The notes beneath the pieces were generated by a model that saw nothing but the letters and a program-made list of their open reading frames with translations, was not told the origin of the DNA and made no database searches. Shown here piece by piece: positions 22,661 to 32,086 of a stretch of DNA of 64,000 nt. A program made the position numbers and the translations under genes. The first letter of the stretch is position 1. The number at the start of each line of letters is the position of its first letter. The DNA lies in contig JAOAEQ010000004.1 in the NCBI GenBank assembly GCA_026416715.1, positions 81,642-145,641 on the forward strand, read 5' to 3'. The DNA is from a bacterium (GTDB lineage: Bacteria; UBP4; UBA4092; JAOAEQ01).

Positions 22661-25600
22661 TTAATCTGGTTTCACCACTCCGGTTATCTGGACTACGGTA
22701 ATCGGCTTCTCTTTTCCTTTAACCGTAATCGGTCCTATTGGATAGCCGGTAAACTTTTTATCTACCAGACTAAAACATTCTTCCGTAACCAGAATCTGTC
22801 CTCCGTCAGCGATTTCCTGCAAGCGAAATGCTATATTCACATTATCGCCGACTGCGGTATATTCGAGTCGTCTCTGTGAGCCAACATTGCCAACAATCGC
22901 TTCGCCATAGTTTATCCCAATTCCAATCTTAATTTCCGGTAATCCTAAACCACGGCGGCTCTGATTGAATAGATCCATTTGTTCTTGCATCGCTAATGCC
23001 GCAAGAATCGCTCGTTCTAAACTATCTTCTGCAGGAATCGGTGCACCGAATAACGCCATGATACAATCCCCGATAAATTTATCGAGAGTTCCTTCGTATT
23101 TGAATATGATGTCAATGAGATGGGTAAAACATTCGTTCAGCATCGCAACTACTTCTTCTGGATTTCCTTTTTCTGCTAATGCAGTAAATCCACGAATATC
23201 TGCGTAGAGGATGGTTATCGGTCTACGTTCACCTTTGAGTGGGACACCTTCCGGATGAGATAGGATTTTTTCTGCAACTCGTTCACTAACGTATTTCGAA
23301 AACGTATCGCGAACTCGTTGCCGGTCTTTCAGAAGCCGAACCATCTGGTTAAATGAACGACCGAGTTCGCCCATTTCATCTTTTTGGCGAATATCAACCT
23401 GATACTCTAAATTACCCGCGCCAACTTCTTGAGTTCCCCGGATAAGTTTTATCAGCGGATGCATCGTCATCACCGTTAATCCGAACCCGATAAAGCTTGC
23501 GATGAGCAGCATTAGGATCGTGAATGACATCAAATTATCATCAAACTCTTTAATTTGCTGGTCAACGAATGTTCGTGGAATAGCAATCGCAAATAATCCC
23601 GGATTCGCTGACTGGACAAATGTTTGCAGCGTTGTTGAAAATGTATATATCGGAAAACGGAGATATCCGACGGTATACACCATATCGCCGATATGCTGCC
23701 GGGAAACAGTGAACGATTCAACCTCAGTTAGTTCCGCTTCAGCCAATTCGGTTTCGCTGATTTTTAATGATTCAGCTTTCATTCGCGGTAACGTTGAAAT
23801 GATATTATTCTCCCAAACGAAAGCTGTTTCCGTGCCGCTATTAAGTTTTAAAAGATGCAATAAACCTTGGCTCACTGGCAGTCCGATAACCGTGGTTTTT
23901 TCCAGATTGTTTTGGGTATAGGTATATTGGTCAAAAAGCATAGGAGTTTGTGATTCCGGGTCAACGAACAATGTTCCGGAAACATTAGGTTTCCCAAAGT
24001 TGAGTAACGCAATATCACCGGCACTGTGTATGCGGTTATTGTTACTCGTTATTTGTTGTGCCCAGTGCAATTGCGGATATTTCTGCTGATAGTTTTGCAG
24101 AATCGCTTGTCGTGCTGTATCATCTTTAGCGGATGCCATTGATATTGCTAATTGATGAAGTTCATATTTCAATTGGGTGACTATTTTCAAAGTTCGTAAC
24201 AAGCCATCGGAGACATGCCGGCTGATTTGTTCTTCCAGTGCATCGCGGGTACTAAACCCAGCGAACCGGAAAATTACTATGGGTAATAAGGTCGCCAGCG
24301 CTAACGCAAACACGAACTTTTTCGTTAATTTAAGTCCGCGATGGACTACCAAGGAAACGATTATTAGAGTTACGAATAGGAGAATAGCCGACGTGCTGAT
24401 TTGGGTATACCGGTCAATTTTCGTTATGACTTCTATCGGATACGGTAATAGGGCGCAAAGTAAACTATCTGAAATAGTAAACGGAATAGCGTATCCGCAA
24501 ATTTTATAGGGGGCTTCTCCAATATGCTGGTAAAAGAAGTATTTCCCACGGTCGAGAAAAGATAAGTTTAGTTCTCGGTCAGTGAATCGAGGTAGTTCGT
24601 GATTATTGAATGGCTCTGTAATCGTGGCATCGACCGTTATCCATTCGTTAATAGCTTTCGGATCAGTGGTTCGGGTAAGAAGAGCGAATTCCGGTCGAAT
24701 CTCGTTCGGAAAATGAGTTTGGATTTCTTTTTTCAACCATTGGGCGGTAATTGGAAAAAAGAGAACAAGATAATGGAGATTTTGTGCAGATTCGAGTAAA
24801 CCACCAGTAGTTAATTGGAGATACGTAACCATTTGAAGTCCTTGCGCAGGAATAACTATTGAATCTGTTTGCAGCTGGATTCGTTTACTATCCAGCATTT
24901 GCGTAAAAACCTTTTTCCAAGCAGAAGAAGCAATGTTCCCAGCTTTGTTGTCGGTTGACGCAGATGGATATACGCAAATAATCTTTTGGGAGTCAGGAGC
25001 ATCCTTGGTTACGAGATATGCTTGAGTACCGGGTGGAAGTTGCAAGTGATAGCGATTTAAAACCGTCTGCCACTCTGTAGGGTGAATAATTTGAGGTGGT
25101 CGTCTGGCTATCGCCTTGAGAACAGCTTGTTGATTTTCCATAATAAATTTGCATTTCTGCATGGACAGTTCAATACTCTGTTTGGCAAAAGAATCAATCG
25201 TTTCAATTTTCTGTTTAATTTGAGTGCGTGCATACCATTTTAGGATCGGAATTGATACCAGAAGAATGATTAACATAACTGAAAAAATCCATTGCCGTTT
25301 CCGAAAGGAGGATGAGGTAGGAAAATCTTTCGGTTCCCCGGATTGTTCTAAATGACCCCAGTTAACCAATACGAACCCTAGCGAAAGTACTGGAAGTGCA
25401 GGAATTGCGAGTTCGCTGAAGATAACGATAAGAAACACTACAATGAACGCTAGGGTAAGTATCAAGAAATTGTTGGTTCGGTTAAACTTAAATTTAACCG
25501 TAGCGAATAAAAATAACGCACTGAAAATACAATCACTTACCCCGAAAAAACCGGGGATTTCTGCTGTTCCTAACAGCGGAAATCGAATTAAAAAATAGTT

Positions 25601-26059
25601 TATCTCTCCGGTAGTGATAAACGATTTCGTTGGGCCAATCACTCCACTCCAGAGATCTAATGCTGACCCGAGAACCGCTATAGGAACCAAATATGATTTC
25701 TGATTTAATGAACGAATTAATAAACTGCTTGTAGTTATGCTGAACAAAATGAGACCGAGGTCAATAGTTACCGCACGGATAACCTCCGCACCGCGAAAAT
25801 GATTTCCAAAATAAACGAAGCCTGCGGCTACAATGGTTATGAGTAATAACCATATCGGTTTTAGTATGAATCGAGTTAGCGAGTAGAAAATAAGTAAAAT
25901 TGTTACCGCACATACTCCTGCGGAAATGAGATAGCCCCATTTCGGGTGTATCGCTGGGACACTCGGTGCGAGATAGGAAAACAAAAAGTAGATAAGAAAC
26001 CACAGCGCTACGGTTAATGCCGGATAGATGAACGATGATTTCTCCTGTACAGAGTTCAT
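22661..26059 (-). CDS. membrane-bound class III adenylate cyclase with two sensor regions and a HAMP domain
   Basis: 1132 residues. An N-terminal block of about 8 membrane helices (1-255) is followed by a helix near 260-280, a large extracytoplasmic region (~290-555), further helices (~560-620), a second extracytoplasmic region (~625-845), a helix (~848-870), HAMP (~867-918) and a class III cyclase domain (945-1125). Metal-binding Asp954 (YADIRGF) and Asp998 (FIGD), adenine-selecting Lys994 and Asp1072, and transition-state Asn1075/Arg1079 are all present, so it should make cAMP. Divergent from the 26154 gene. Ligands unknown. Confidence 0.93.
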   Translation of the reverse strand: MNSVQEKSSFIYPALTVALWFLIYFLFSYLAPSVPAIHPKWGYLISAGVCAVTILLIFYSLTRFILKPIWLLLITIVAAGFVYFGNHFRGAEVIRAVTIDLGLILFSITTSSLLIRSLNQKSYLVPIAVLGSALDLWSGVIGPTKSFITTGEINYFLIRFPLLGTAEIPGFFGVSDCIFSALFLFATVKFKFNRTNNFLILTLAFIVVFLIVIFSELAIPALPVLSLGFVLVNWGHLEQSGEPKDFPTSSSFRKRQWIFSVMLIILLVSIPILKWYARTQIKQKIETIDSFAKQSIELSMQKCKFIMENQQAVLKAIARRPPQIIHPTEWQTVLNRYHLQLPPGTQAYLVTKDAPDSQKIICVYPSASTDNKAGNIASSAWKKVFTQMLDSKRIQLQTDSIVIPAQGLQMVTYLQLTTGGLLESAQNLHYLVLFFPITAQWLKKEIQTHFPNEIRPEFALLTRTTDPKAINEWITVDATITEPFNNHELPRFTDRELNLSFLDRGKYFFYQHIGEAPYKICGYAIPFTISDSLLCALLPYPIEVITKIDRYTQISTSAILLFVTLIIVSLVVHRGLKLTKKFVFALALATLLPIVIFRFAGFSTRDALEEQISRHVSDGLLRTLKIVTQLKYELHQLAISMASAKDDTARQAILQNYQQKYPQLHWAQQITSNNNRIHSAGDIALLNFGKPNVSGTLFVDPESQTPMLFDQYTYTQNNLEKTTVIGLPVSQGLLHLLKLNSGTETAFVWENNIISTLPRMKAESLKISETELAEAELTEVESFTVSRQHIGDMVYTVGYLRFPIYTFSTTLQTFVQSANPGLFAIAIPRTFVDQQIKEFDDNLMSFTILMLLIASFIGFGLTVMTMHPLIKLIRGTQEVGAGNLEYQVDIRQKDEMGELGRSFNQMVRLLKDRQRVRDTFSKYVSERVAEKILSHPEGVPLKGERRPITILYADIRGFTALAEKGNPEEVVAMLNECFTHLIDIIFKYEGTLDKFIGDCIMALFGAPIPAEDSLERAILAALAMQEQMDLFNQSRRGLGLPEIKIGIGINYGEAIVGNVGSQRRLEYTAVGDNVNIAFRLQEIADGGQILVTEECFSLVDKKFTGYPIGPITVKGKEKPITVVQITGVVKPD

Positions 26060-29981: not shown

Positions 29982-30443
29982 ATGACTGAATATAGTGCTT
30001 CGAAAAGAATTGGAGAGCTCCTCATCGAACAAAAACTGATTACGCCGGCTATTTTGGAACAAGCACTTTCCCAGCAGCGGCAAGAATTAGTTCCGTTAGG
30101 GAAAATATTTATCCAGCTTGGTTGCGTTTCTGAAGACCAGTTAAACTCGGTTCTTGCTAGTCAGTTTGGATTAGTCTATCTTAACCCACGGTCATTTGTT
30201 TTACAGGATACATCGCTCCTTAATTTCATTCCGGAATCGCTCGCGCGACGTTTTGTTTGTTTTCCTCTCGAAAAGAAACATGGGACGCTGTTGGTGGTTA
30301 TGGCTGATCCGTGGAATACCGATGCGATTAATGAGCTTACGAAAGTCACCCAATTAACTATCCAACCGAAATTTAGTCGCCACGAATGGATTGAGCAAAT
30401 CATTGATAAATATTATAATAGTCAGTGGCAGAAGAATAATTAA
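29982..30443 (+). CDS. stand-alone MshEN (GspE/PilB N-terminal) domain protein
   Basis: 153 residues from ATG 29982, chosen because the protein match starts here (SASKRIGELLIEQKLITPAI) and a promoter sits immediately before it; an upstream frame start overlaps the esterase gene. Two 24-residue MshEN motifs in tandem: RIGELLIEQKLI...LEQALSQQ and LGKIFIQLGCV...LNSVLASQ, the pattern that binds c-di-GMP in MshE and related ATPases. The rest matches the second half of the GspE N-terminal domain (FPLEKKHGTLLVVMADPWN). About two-thirds identical by eye to the N-terminus of the next gene: a tandem duplication. No ATPase domain. Confidence 0.85.
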   Translation: MTEYSASKRIGELLIEQKLITPAILEQALSQQRQELVPLGKIFIQLGCVSEDQLNSVLASQFGLVYLNPRSFVLQDTSLLNFIPESLARRFVCFPLEKKHGTLLVVMADPWNTDAINELTKVTQLTIQPKFSRHEWIEQIIDKYYNSQWQKNN

Positions 30444-30544
30444 TCGCAAAATATCTAGCCTAATCTCATTATAACCATAACCGAAACAAATTTGCAAAAT
30501 AAACCATAGCAAATTTTACAGAGGAACTTTATAGCGTTATTCCA

Positions 30545-30553
30545 TGCGATAAT
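30545..30553 (+). promoter_or_regulatory. extended -10 promoter right before the MshEN-DnaA gene
   Basis: TGCGATAAT with the ATG only 9 bases after it (30563). No -35 match and no Shine-Dalgarno; a transcript from here would be leaderless. Confidence 0.4.
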
Positions 30554-30562
30554 ATTCGAATT

Positions 30563-32086
30563 ATGGCAAAACAACTCGGTGAACTTCTTATTGAACAGCG
30601 GTTGATAACGAAAAGTATGCTTGAACAGGCGTTGGAGTTACAACAGCAGCGCCGGTTACCATTAGGGAAAATCCTATTGCAACTGGGATATGTTACCGAG
30701 GAAGATTTGAATACTATCCTCGCGAAACAATTCGGGAGTATCTATATCAATCCGCGTGGATTCGTTGTAAAAGATATTAACCTGTTAACCTTGATTCCAG
30801 AACCTATCGCGCGACAATATATCTGTTTCCCATTAGAAAAAAATGAAGAGCAGTTAACTGTAGCGATGTCTGACCCTTGGGATACCGACGCTATCCAGAA
30901 ATTAACCGAATTAACGAAATTGACTATTCGTCCGATATTTAGTCGTCGGGAATGGATTGAACAGATTATCGATAAATATTATCCGACAGTGAAATCTAAC
31001 GACCGTTCATTATCATCCGATACAATTACGGGGATTTTTCCCATAACCGCAGTCCCTGAACCTAATGGCACTCAATCTAAACCTGTAGAATCTCAACCAA
31101 TTTCCTCAAAAACTGATACAGTGATGGATATATCCACACCGCAGACTCCAGTTCAGCCATCAGCGGCAGTTGTTCCGGATAAACGTTCATTGGATACCGA
31201 GCAAGCTCTGGATAAAGCGCAACTAGAATCGCTATCCCAGCAACCCAATGTTCCGCTGGGATTAACTCCATCTACTTCGACAGAATCGCACGTATCACCA
31301 CAACCGCAACCGCATCTATCTTCTCCAGAACCGACGCAGATTCAGCCATCGCTATTAACGAAACCGATACCCGAGTTTACTTTTGATAGTTTTGTCGTTG
31401 GGACTGGGAATCAACTCGCTTGGGCAGCAGCGAAAAATGTCGCTGAATCACCAGGTACAACCTATAATCCACTCTTCATTTATGGCGGGGTCGGACTCGG
31501 CAAAACGCATCTGATGAACGCAATCGGCAATTTAATTCTGCAAAAAAATCCTCATAGTTTATTGGTATATATCCCCTGCACTCGTTTTATTGAAGAGATG
31601 ATTACTGCGATTGCATCAGGAACAATCACTCCGTTCCGCCAGAAATACTGGCATCTGCAAGTTTTGCTCATTGACGATGTTCAGTTTCTCGCTGGTCAGG
31701 AACGAACCCAAGTCGAATTATTCCAGATGTTTGAAGAATTGCATCATCGTCGAGCACAAATTGTTCTCACCAGCGACCGTCTTCCGAAAGATATCCCGCA
31801 ACTCGAAGAACGACTTCGCTCCCGATTCGAAGGCGGATTGATTGTCGATGTCCAGATGCCGGATTTAGAAACGCGCATAGCGATTCTCCGCCGAAAAGCG
31901 ATGCAACGGAATTTGCAGCTTCCGGATGATATCGCCAATGTCATTGCAACGTTCATCTCGACAAATGTTCGCGAACTGGAAGGGGTGTTGAATAAAATTA
32001 ACGCAATTTCATCGCTCGGTGGCCGACCGATAACGATGCAGGTTGTTCAAAATATTTTAAGCGAAATGATTAAACAAGGTAGGTGA
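30563..32086 (+). CDS. fusion of an MshEN domain with a DnaA-like AAA+ ATPase lacking DNA-binding domain IV
   Basis: 507 residues. 1-~140: MshEN domain with both motifs (QLGELLIEQRLIT, LGKILLQLGYV). ~141-270: Pro/Gln/Ser-rich linker. ~271-505: DnaA domain III, starting FTFDSFVVG, with Walker A GGVGLGKTH (Lys314), Walker B LLIDDVQFLAG (Asp371/Asp372), sensor 1 LTSDR, box VII RLRSRF (Arg421 at the DnaA arginine-finger position) and sensor 2 NVRELEG (Arg470). It ends at the close of domain III, with no helix-turn-helix domain IV, and lacks DnaA domain I. Likely a nucleotide-dependent oligomer controlled by c-di-GMP rather than a replication initiator. Tandem with a lone MshEN gene. Confidence 0.93.
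   Translation: MAKQLGELLIEQRLITKSMLEQALELQQQRRLPLGKILLQLGYVTEEDLNTILAKQFGSIYINPRGFVVKDINLLTLIPEPIARQYICFPLEKNEEQLTVAMSDPWDTDAIQKLTELTKLTIRPIFSRREWIEQIIDKYYPTVKSNDRSLSSDTITGIFPITAVPEPNGTQSKPVESQPISSKTDTVMDISTPQTPVQPSAAVVPDKRSLDTEQALDKAQLESLSQQPNVPLGLTPSTSTESHVSPQPQPHLSSPEPTQIQPSLLTKPIPEFTFDSFVVGTGNQLAWAAAKNVAESPGTTYNPLFIYGGVGLGKTHLMNAIGNLILQKNPHSLLVYIPCTRFIEEMITAIASGTITPFRQKYWHLQVLLIDDVQFLAGQERTQVELFQMFEELHHRRAQIVLTSDRLPKDIPQLEERLRSRFEGGLIVDVQMPDLETRIAILRRKAMQRNLQLPDDIANVIATFISTNVRELEGVLNKINAISSLGGRPITMQVVQNILSEMIKQGR

Follow-up and report, generated by a model that had tools for sequence, protein, structure and literature searches.

The window analysed here is a 64,000-nucleotide stretch of bacterial DNA that carries, on its + strand at 30563..32086, a gene for a 507-residue protein in which an MshEN domain is joined through a linker to a DnaA domain III, as assigned from Pfam, NCBIfam and a structure model. 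The frame is open throughout and contains no frameshift. Pfam matches MshEN (PF05157; 8.8e-16) at residues 70–144 and Bac_DnaA (PF00308; 3.9e-59) at residues 271–429, with a weak match to Hda_lid and none to DnaA domain I or the C-terminal domain IV anywhere in the 507 residues. Both Pfam and the AlphaFold model place MshEN at the N-terminus, where the DnaA initiator has domain I, and the protein ends at residue 507 right after the lid, the helix–turn–helix domain IV being absent. The DnaA model TIGR00362 of NCBIfam scores 336 bits, slightly below its cut-off of 343.9, as expected for a protein without domain IV. A sequence-only reading of this locus had described an MshEN domain joined to DnaA domain III and a lack of domains I and IV; Pfam, NCBIfam and structure matches bear out the former, and Pfam together with the end of the protein after the lid confirms the latter. 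Since the loss of these two domains would remove helicase loading via domain I and DnaA-box binding, the fusion, judged from its domain content, is not a replication initiator. Rfam gave no match across the whole window, and a promoter and terminator scan around the fusion and the lone MshEN gene preceding it yielded hits at chance level.

The C-terminal subdomain of MshEN, identified by the PF05157 match at residues 70–144 (30770..30994, +), is followed by a linker rich in Ser, Pro, Thr and Gln that is predicted to be disordered (residues 146–268; 30998..31366, +) and by the AAA+ core and lid of DnaA domain III (residues 270–505; 31370..32077, +), which stops two residues before the end of the protein and is supported by Pfam, a structure match and the model. 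The AlphaFold2 model is confident for the MshEN helices within residues 2–57 (2–11, 17–30, 34–41 and 46–57 of the N-terminal subdomain) and for domain III at 270–505, and falls below a pLDDT of 50 in the linker (146–263). The MshEN C-terminal subdomain is modelled with low confidence from a thin alignment and has the sequence match to PF05157. Foldseek returned domain III of Bacillus subtilis DnaA as the first match of the model (53% identity, TM-score 0.93 of the target), and comparison with the solved structure of that domain (8btg) gave 6.9e-76. By sequence, the N-terminus of the fusion resembles PilF, PilB and MshE.

The ATPase half shares its motifs and predicted fold with DnaA domain III of B. 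subtilis (8bv3 and 8btg) and Aquifex aeolicus (1l8q and 3r8f), and differs from DnaA in being joined to a signal-sensing domain. A residue table locates Walker A (GGVGLGKTH, residues 308–316; 31484..31510, +), Walker B (VLLIDD, residues 367–372; 31661..31678, +) and the sensor 2 residue Arg470 in NVRELEG (31970..31972, +); the arginine finger, Arg421, lies in box VII (RSRFEGGL; 31823..31825, +), which in canonical DnaA usually reads RSRFEWGL. Walker A, Walker B, sensor 1, Arg421 (within SRF) and Arg470 all match the solved domain III structures, in agreement with the earlier claim of a complete set of ATPase motifs including both arginines. The Trp-to-Gly change in box VII was considered as a family diagnostic and is weakened in that role by the A. 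aeolicus protein, which also has Gly there.

MshEN–DnaA-III proteins were found in seven genomes of three phyla: the window genome (G000) and G001, the sole other genome of its phylum in the sample; all three sampled genomes of a second phylum (G025, G060 and G061); and two of the three sampled from a third (G151 and G288, the other being G386). A profile built from the first fusions found G001, G025, G060 and G061, and long-frame DnaA matches revealed G151 and G288. No further fusions appeared among about 390 diverse genomes, covered in two surveys of ∼386 genomes each drawn largely from the same sample; as three or four candidates were scored per genome, absence elsewhere is not firm. Full-length homologs of the window fusion occur in G001 (47% identity), in G025 and G060 (35–38%) and also in G061. 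In G151 four genes lie in tandem: both Pfam domains exceed their cut-offs in g1 and g3, g2 retains MshEN, its ATPase region having decayed too far for a score, and g4, which is likewise homologous to the window fusion in both G151 and G288, matches the c-di-GMP motif model and the DnaA models, is ∼2,000 residues long and has a second DnaA domain III near its C-terminus. Walker A and B, sensor 1, the arginine finger and sensor 2 are retained in all seven fusions of the residue table. The presence of the architecture in six other genomes excludes an assembly artefact, and the fusion is neither an assembly error nor a singleton. A further MshEN–DnaA-III protein of 398 residues (L207:1480-2676, contig C283 of G151) adjoins ORFs resembling an ECF sigma factor and an anti-sigma factor. 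A search for related loci among genomes of named organisms returned DnaA domain III matches as its best 80 loci.

The MshEN/GSPII domains of MshE, PilB and Thermus PilF sit N-terminal to an ATPase, as in the fusion, and share with it two 24-residue motifs with a five-residue spacer and, judging from its model, a four-helix N-terminal subdomain (PMC5013675, PMC11731258). The output differs, being a DnaA-type AAA+ domain in the fusion and a PilT/GspE-type traffic ATPase in the known proteins. Their extended consensus, (R/K/L)LGxx(LVI)(LVI)xxG(LVI)(LVI)xxxxLxxxLxxQ, is present in two copies separated by a short spacer (PMC11731258, PMC5013675). In the fusion, predicted c-di-GMP motif I spans residues 4–27 (QLGELLIEQRLITKSMLEQALELQ; 30572..30643, +) and motif II residues 33–56 (PLGKILLQLGYVTEEDLNTILAKQ; 30659..30730, +), each matching the consensus at nine of 11 scored positions. 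The resulting 18 of 22 compares with 17–19 in five more of the seven main fusions, 13 in the degraded G025 homolog and 12–20 in the PilB proteins of the same comparison set, so that the window fusion and those five lie within the range of genuine PilB MshEN domains. The curated NCBI model of the motif, NF053729, scores 57.5 bits on residues 4–56 against a cut-off of 38 and exceeds that cut-off in all seven fusions, barely so in G025 (40.2). The key residues of the contact motifs, on which the earlier proposal depended, are therefore largely in place.

Position 1 of the motifs departs from the known proteins, being Gln in motif I and Pro in motif II where the consensus has Arg, Lys or Leu. Pro is also found there in motif II of the GSPII-C domain of Thermus PilF, a c-di-GMP binder (PMC11731258). 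In the published mutagenesis, changes at Arg9, Asp12 and Gln32 shifted the affinity by no more than about fivefold, and single mutation of any conserved hydrophobic residue reduced it more than tenfold (PMC5013675). Because the leucines of both clusters (L5, L20 and L24; L34, L49 and L53) are all kept in the window fusion, its MshEN domain is likely to bind c-di-GMP. Binding is probably not universal, given the 13 of 22 positions and marginal NF053729 score of G025, and may vary across the family. GGDEF proteins are encoded in all seven fusion genomes, with nine matches in that of the window, so c-di-GMP synthesis is available there. The suggestion of a second-messenger-gated oligomer, made in the sequence-only reading, stands.

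The gene upstream of the fusion (29982..30443, +), 119 bp away, encodes a lone MshEN protein of 153 residues (MshEN 9.8e-16; NF053729 60.0 bits; 17 of 22 consensus positions), a tandem paralog of the fusion N-terminus with 61% identity to the fusion's own MshEN. In a tree of MshEN domains the two are sisters (91/89), with the G001 fusion outside, which makes the lone protein a local, lineage-specific duplicate; no counterpart was seen next to the fusion in G001 or in the other lineages. The upstream paralog noticed earlier is thus real and in tandem, but it is not a conserved partner of the fusion. The remaining neighbours in the window are a GDSL esterase and a cyclophilin-like gene, and no pilus gene is nearby. 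About 4 kb from the pair, 22661-26059 (−) encodes a membrane protein of 1132 residues with HAMP and class III adenylate/guanylate cyclase domains. Elsewhere in this genome there are two further lone MshEN-type proteins (L182:6014-6823 on contig C17 and L183:6315-7028 on contig C10), one of them directly upstream of two pilT-like genes.

Outside the window genome, the fusion lies inside a pil cluster in G025, G060, G061 and G151. All three genomes of the second phylum have a co-directional run fusion–pilB–pilT–pilS–pilR–pilC with the fusion first, at 19, 157 and 30 bp from pilB in G025, G060 and G061, respectively. The order in G151 is pilD, g1–g4, a gene for a TonB_C-type protein, pilB, one ORF, pilT, pilC, a histidine kinase gene read as pilS, pilT and a pilR-like gene, and G288 has pilD and the same MshEN/AAA+ tandem up to the end of the contig. 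In G001 pilB–pilC lies ∼8 kb from the fusion; in G000 the fusion is on contig C4 and the corresponding pilB cluster on contig C34. PilB and PilT were called by PF00437 and the other pil names by eye from translations. The fusion-adjacent PilB proteins are 48–56% identical across phyla to one another and to the PilB on contig C34, and less like the two other PilB proteins of G000 that were examined (45–47%). All seven genomes encode T2SSE-family pilus or secretion ATPases (17 in G000), and a rough, unsimulated estimate, taking 18–20 T2SSE genes in ∼5,000 genes and each phylum as one event, puts chance adjacency to such a gene at ∼1% or less in the second lineage and lower in G151.

These observations suggest that the fusion is a c-di-GMP-responsive, DnaA-derived AAA+ switch that serves a type IV pilus, or else a related T2SS-like system, a reading to which we assign a probability of roughly 0.55. 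The MshEN domain would most likely bind c-di-GMP, and domain III would most likely bind and hydrolyse ATP and self-assemble through the arginine finger; ligand on MshEN would alter the state of assembly, which would act on the pilus motor, probably PilB, itself the carrier of a related MshEN domain. We infer c-di-GMP binding, oligomerization and the pilus target, as well as the same job for the unlinked window copy. Against this reading stand that lack of linkage in the window genome, the decayed motif of G025, the Gln and Pro at position 1 of the window motifs, trees that neither show nor reject a single origin of the fusions, and the retention of R381 and T382, equivalents of some ssDNA contacts of DnaA. 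The unlinked copy would suit an ATPase or scaffold of more general signalling, directed at other targets such as transcription or surface polysaccharide, for which the pilus linkage is lineage-specific; the varied neighbourhoods of the receiver-domain proteins described below and the sigma/anti-sigma-like ORFs beside L207 point the same way. Such a role appears unlikely in view of the recurrent pil linkage, with the fusion right before pilB in one phylum and in the same cluster in another.

Of the two uses proposed in the sequence-only reading, reuse in pili, secretion or at the surface is favoured over control of DnaA through mixed filaments by the pil operon context in two other phyla. In a c-di-GMP-gated replication regulator, the ring or filament end formed by domain III would co-assemble with DnaA and promote ATP hydrolysis or cap the filament in the manner of Hda, an AAA+ protein that also consists of DnaA domain III alone and lacks domain IV. 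The arginine finger and the motifs of the AAA+ interface are intact and would allow this, and DnaA models score top among AAA+ families. A family search of G000 returned the canonical DnaA (encoded separately, on contig C19), the fusion and a DnaC-like loader (contig C9), and no separate Hda. The Hda model TIGR03420, however, scores 115 bits on the fusion, far below its cut-off of 194.8, and among the 11 matches of a loose pattern none was judged by eye to be a clear Hda-like motif for binding the sliding clamp; the fusion further differs from Hda in its MshEN domain and its pil-linked relatives. No linkage to dnaA, dnaN or oriC, or to any replication gene, was seen in the lineages read. Control of replication is weakened by the pil linkage and the poor Hda scores, and we consider it quite improbable.

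A further alternative is an ATPase that acts on single-stranded DNA taken up during natural transformation driven by the pilus. The fusion keeps R381 and T382, equivalent in the alignment to some of the ssDNA-contact residues of DnaA, which we take to be R190 and T191 in Aquifex numbering, and the pilB–pilC cluster of the window lineage contains dprA-like and topA-like ORFs (by eye). Not all such contacts are kept: the K188 equivalent is Gln in the window lineage, that of T191 is Ala in the second phylum as well as in g4 of G151 and G288, and those of R190 and T191 are both lost in g3 of the same two genomes; nor were transformation genes seen beside the fusion in the second and third lineages. 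We regard this function as very improbable.

The history of the fusions was approached through trees of both halves. Among 41 DnaA-III domains placed in one tree, a branch (78/93) that is not conclusive separates the fusions, together with the TPR and tandem proteins, from the rest. Neither a single clade of the seven fusions (p-AU 0.27) nor a grouping in which the window pair (G000 and G001) joins its canonical DnaA (p-AU 0.19) is rejected. The MshEN tree does not reject monophyly of all fusions (p-AU 0.115) and sets PilB domains apart from fusion domains (84/85). A single origin of all fusions is accordingly neither shown nor rejected by these sequences. G151 g4 joins the G025 lineage in the MshEN tree (80/87), and in the DnaA-III tree the G151 and G025 lineages fall into a single group with the TPR proteins (81/82); this agreement fits a shared history of the two halves, and one old fusion common to at least two lineages is the simplest reading.

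DnaA domain III also occurs under other domains. Genomes of the G151 phylum encode several extra DnaA-III proteins each with an N-terminal response-regulator receiver (REC) domain, in varied gene neighbourhoods; two were confirmed by Pfam and the rest identified by eye. Among them, L202:841-2661 and L205:781-2643 (G288) combine REC and domain III with an unannotated C-terminal region. Similar proteins, several copies per genome, were seen at L203, L204, L208, L210, L211 and L197 in the phylum of G151, G288 and G386, and some of the genes adjoin histidine-kinase-like ORFs. Long TPR proteins of 1750–2008 residues or more have a DnaA domain III at their end and lack domain IV (L106:6958-12984 in G013 and L172:2480-7732 in G301). 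A DnaA-like AAA+ domain begins a coiled-coil protein of 1746 residues (L108:3512-8752 in G025; also L138 in G060), the G025 protein having a second, weak DnaA-like match farther along, and a 697-residue protein of G108 (L175:2424-4517) contains two copies of domain III, the second divergent. Three proteins of 611–709 residues (L174:3793-5655, L176:3233-5362 and L177:1932-3767) hold domain III between unannotated N- and C-terminal regions; the gene of the G119 member lies one ORF from a pilT-like ORF. G060 and G061 additionally encode, near a PilB-like gene, a short DnaA of 352–357 residues (L129:1474-2532 and L130:1201-2274) with domains III and IV but not I or II by eye, extra to the canonical dnaA.

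In the REC and TPR proteins this ATPase sits beneath a different sensor or scaffold, which favours the proposed reading, and domain III looks like a signalling output module under varied inputs, one that is apparently undescribed. No description of the MshEN–DnaA fusion was found in searches of one open-access library, which covers a part of the literature. A broader reading, in which DnaA domain III is a signal-output ATPase freed from replication behind MshEN, REC or TPR domains in several poorly known phyla and the MshEN branch is devoted to ligand-gated control of type IV pili, seems to us to fall a little short of even odds.

FleQ and other c-di-GMP-regulated AAA+ proteins likewise place an AAA+ ATPase under the influence of c-di-GMP. 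FleQ is mentioned in the MshEN work (PMC5013675); the fusion differs from it in belonging to a different AAA+ clade, in having MshEN as a separate receptor domain and in having no DNA-binding domain. The ATPase of DnaA is usually regarded as having no task beyond initiating replication and directly controlling that step. If the proposed reading is correct, an initiator ATPase would have been co-opted for signalling, c-di-GMP biology would gain a new class of output, and these proteins would offer a natural test of DnaA-type assembly without DNA-binding domains. The MshEN-, REC- and TPR-DnaA-III proteins are concrete candidates for biochemistry, and the MshEN fusions suggest that a replication motor has found a second use in switching surface pili in response to a signal.
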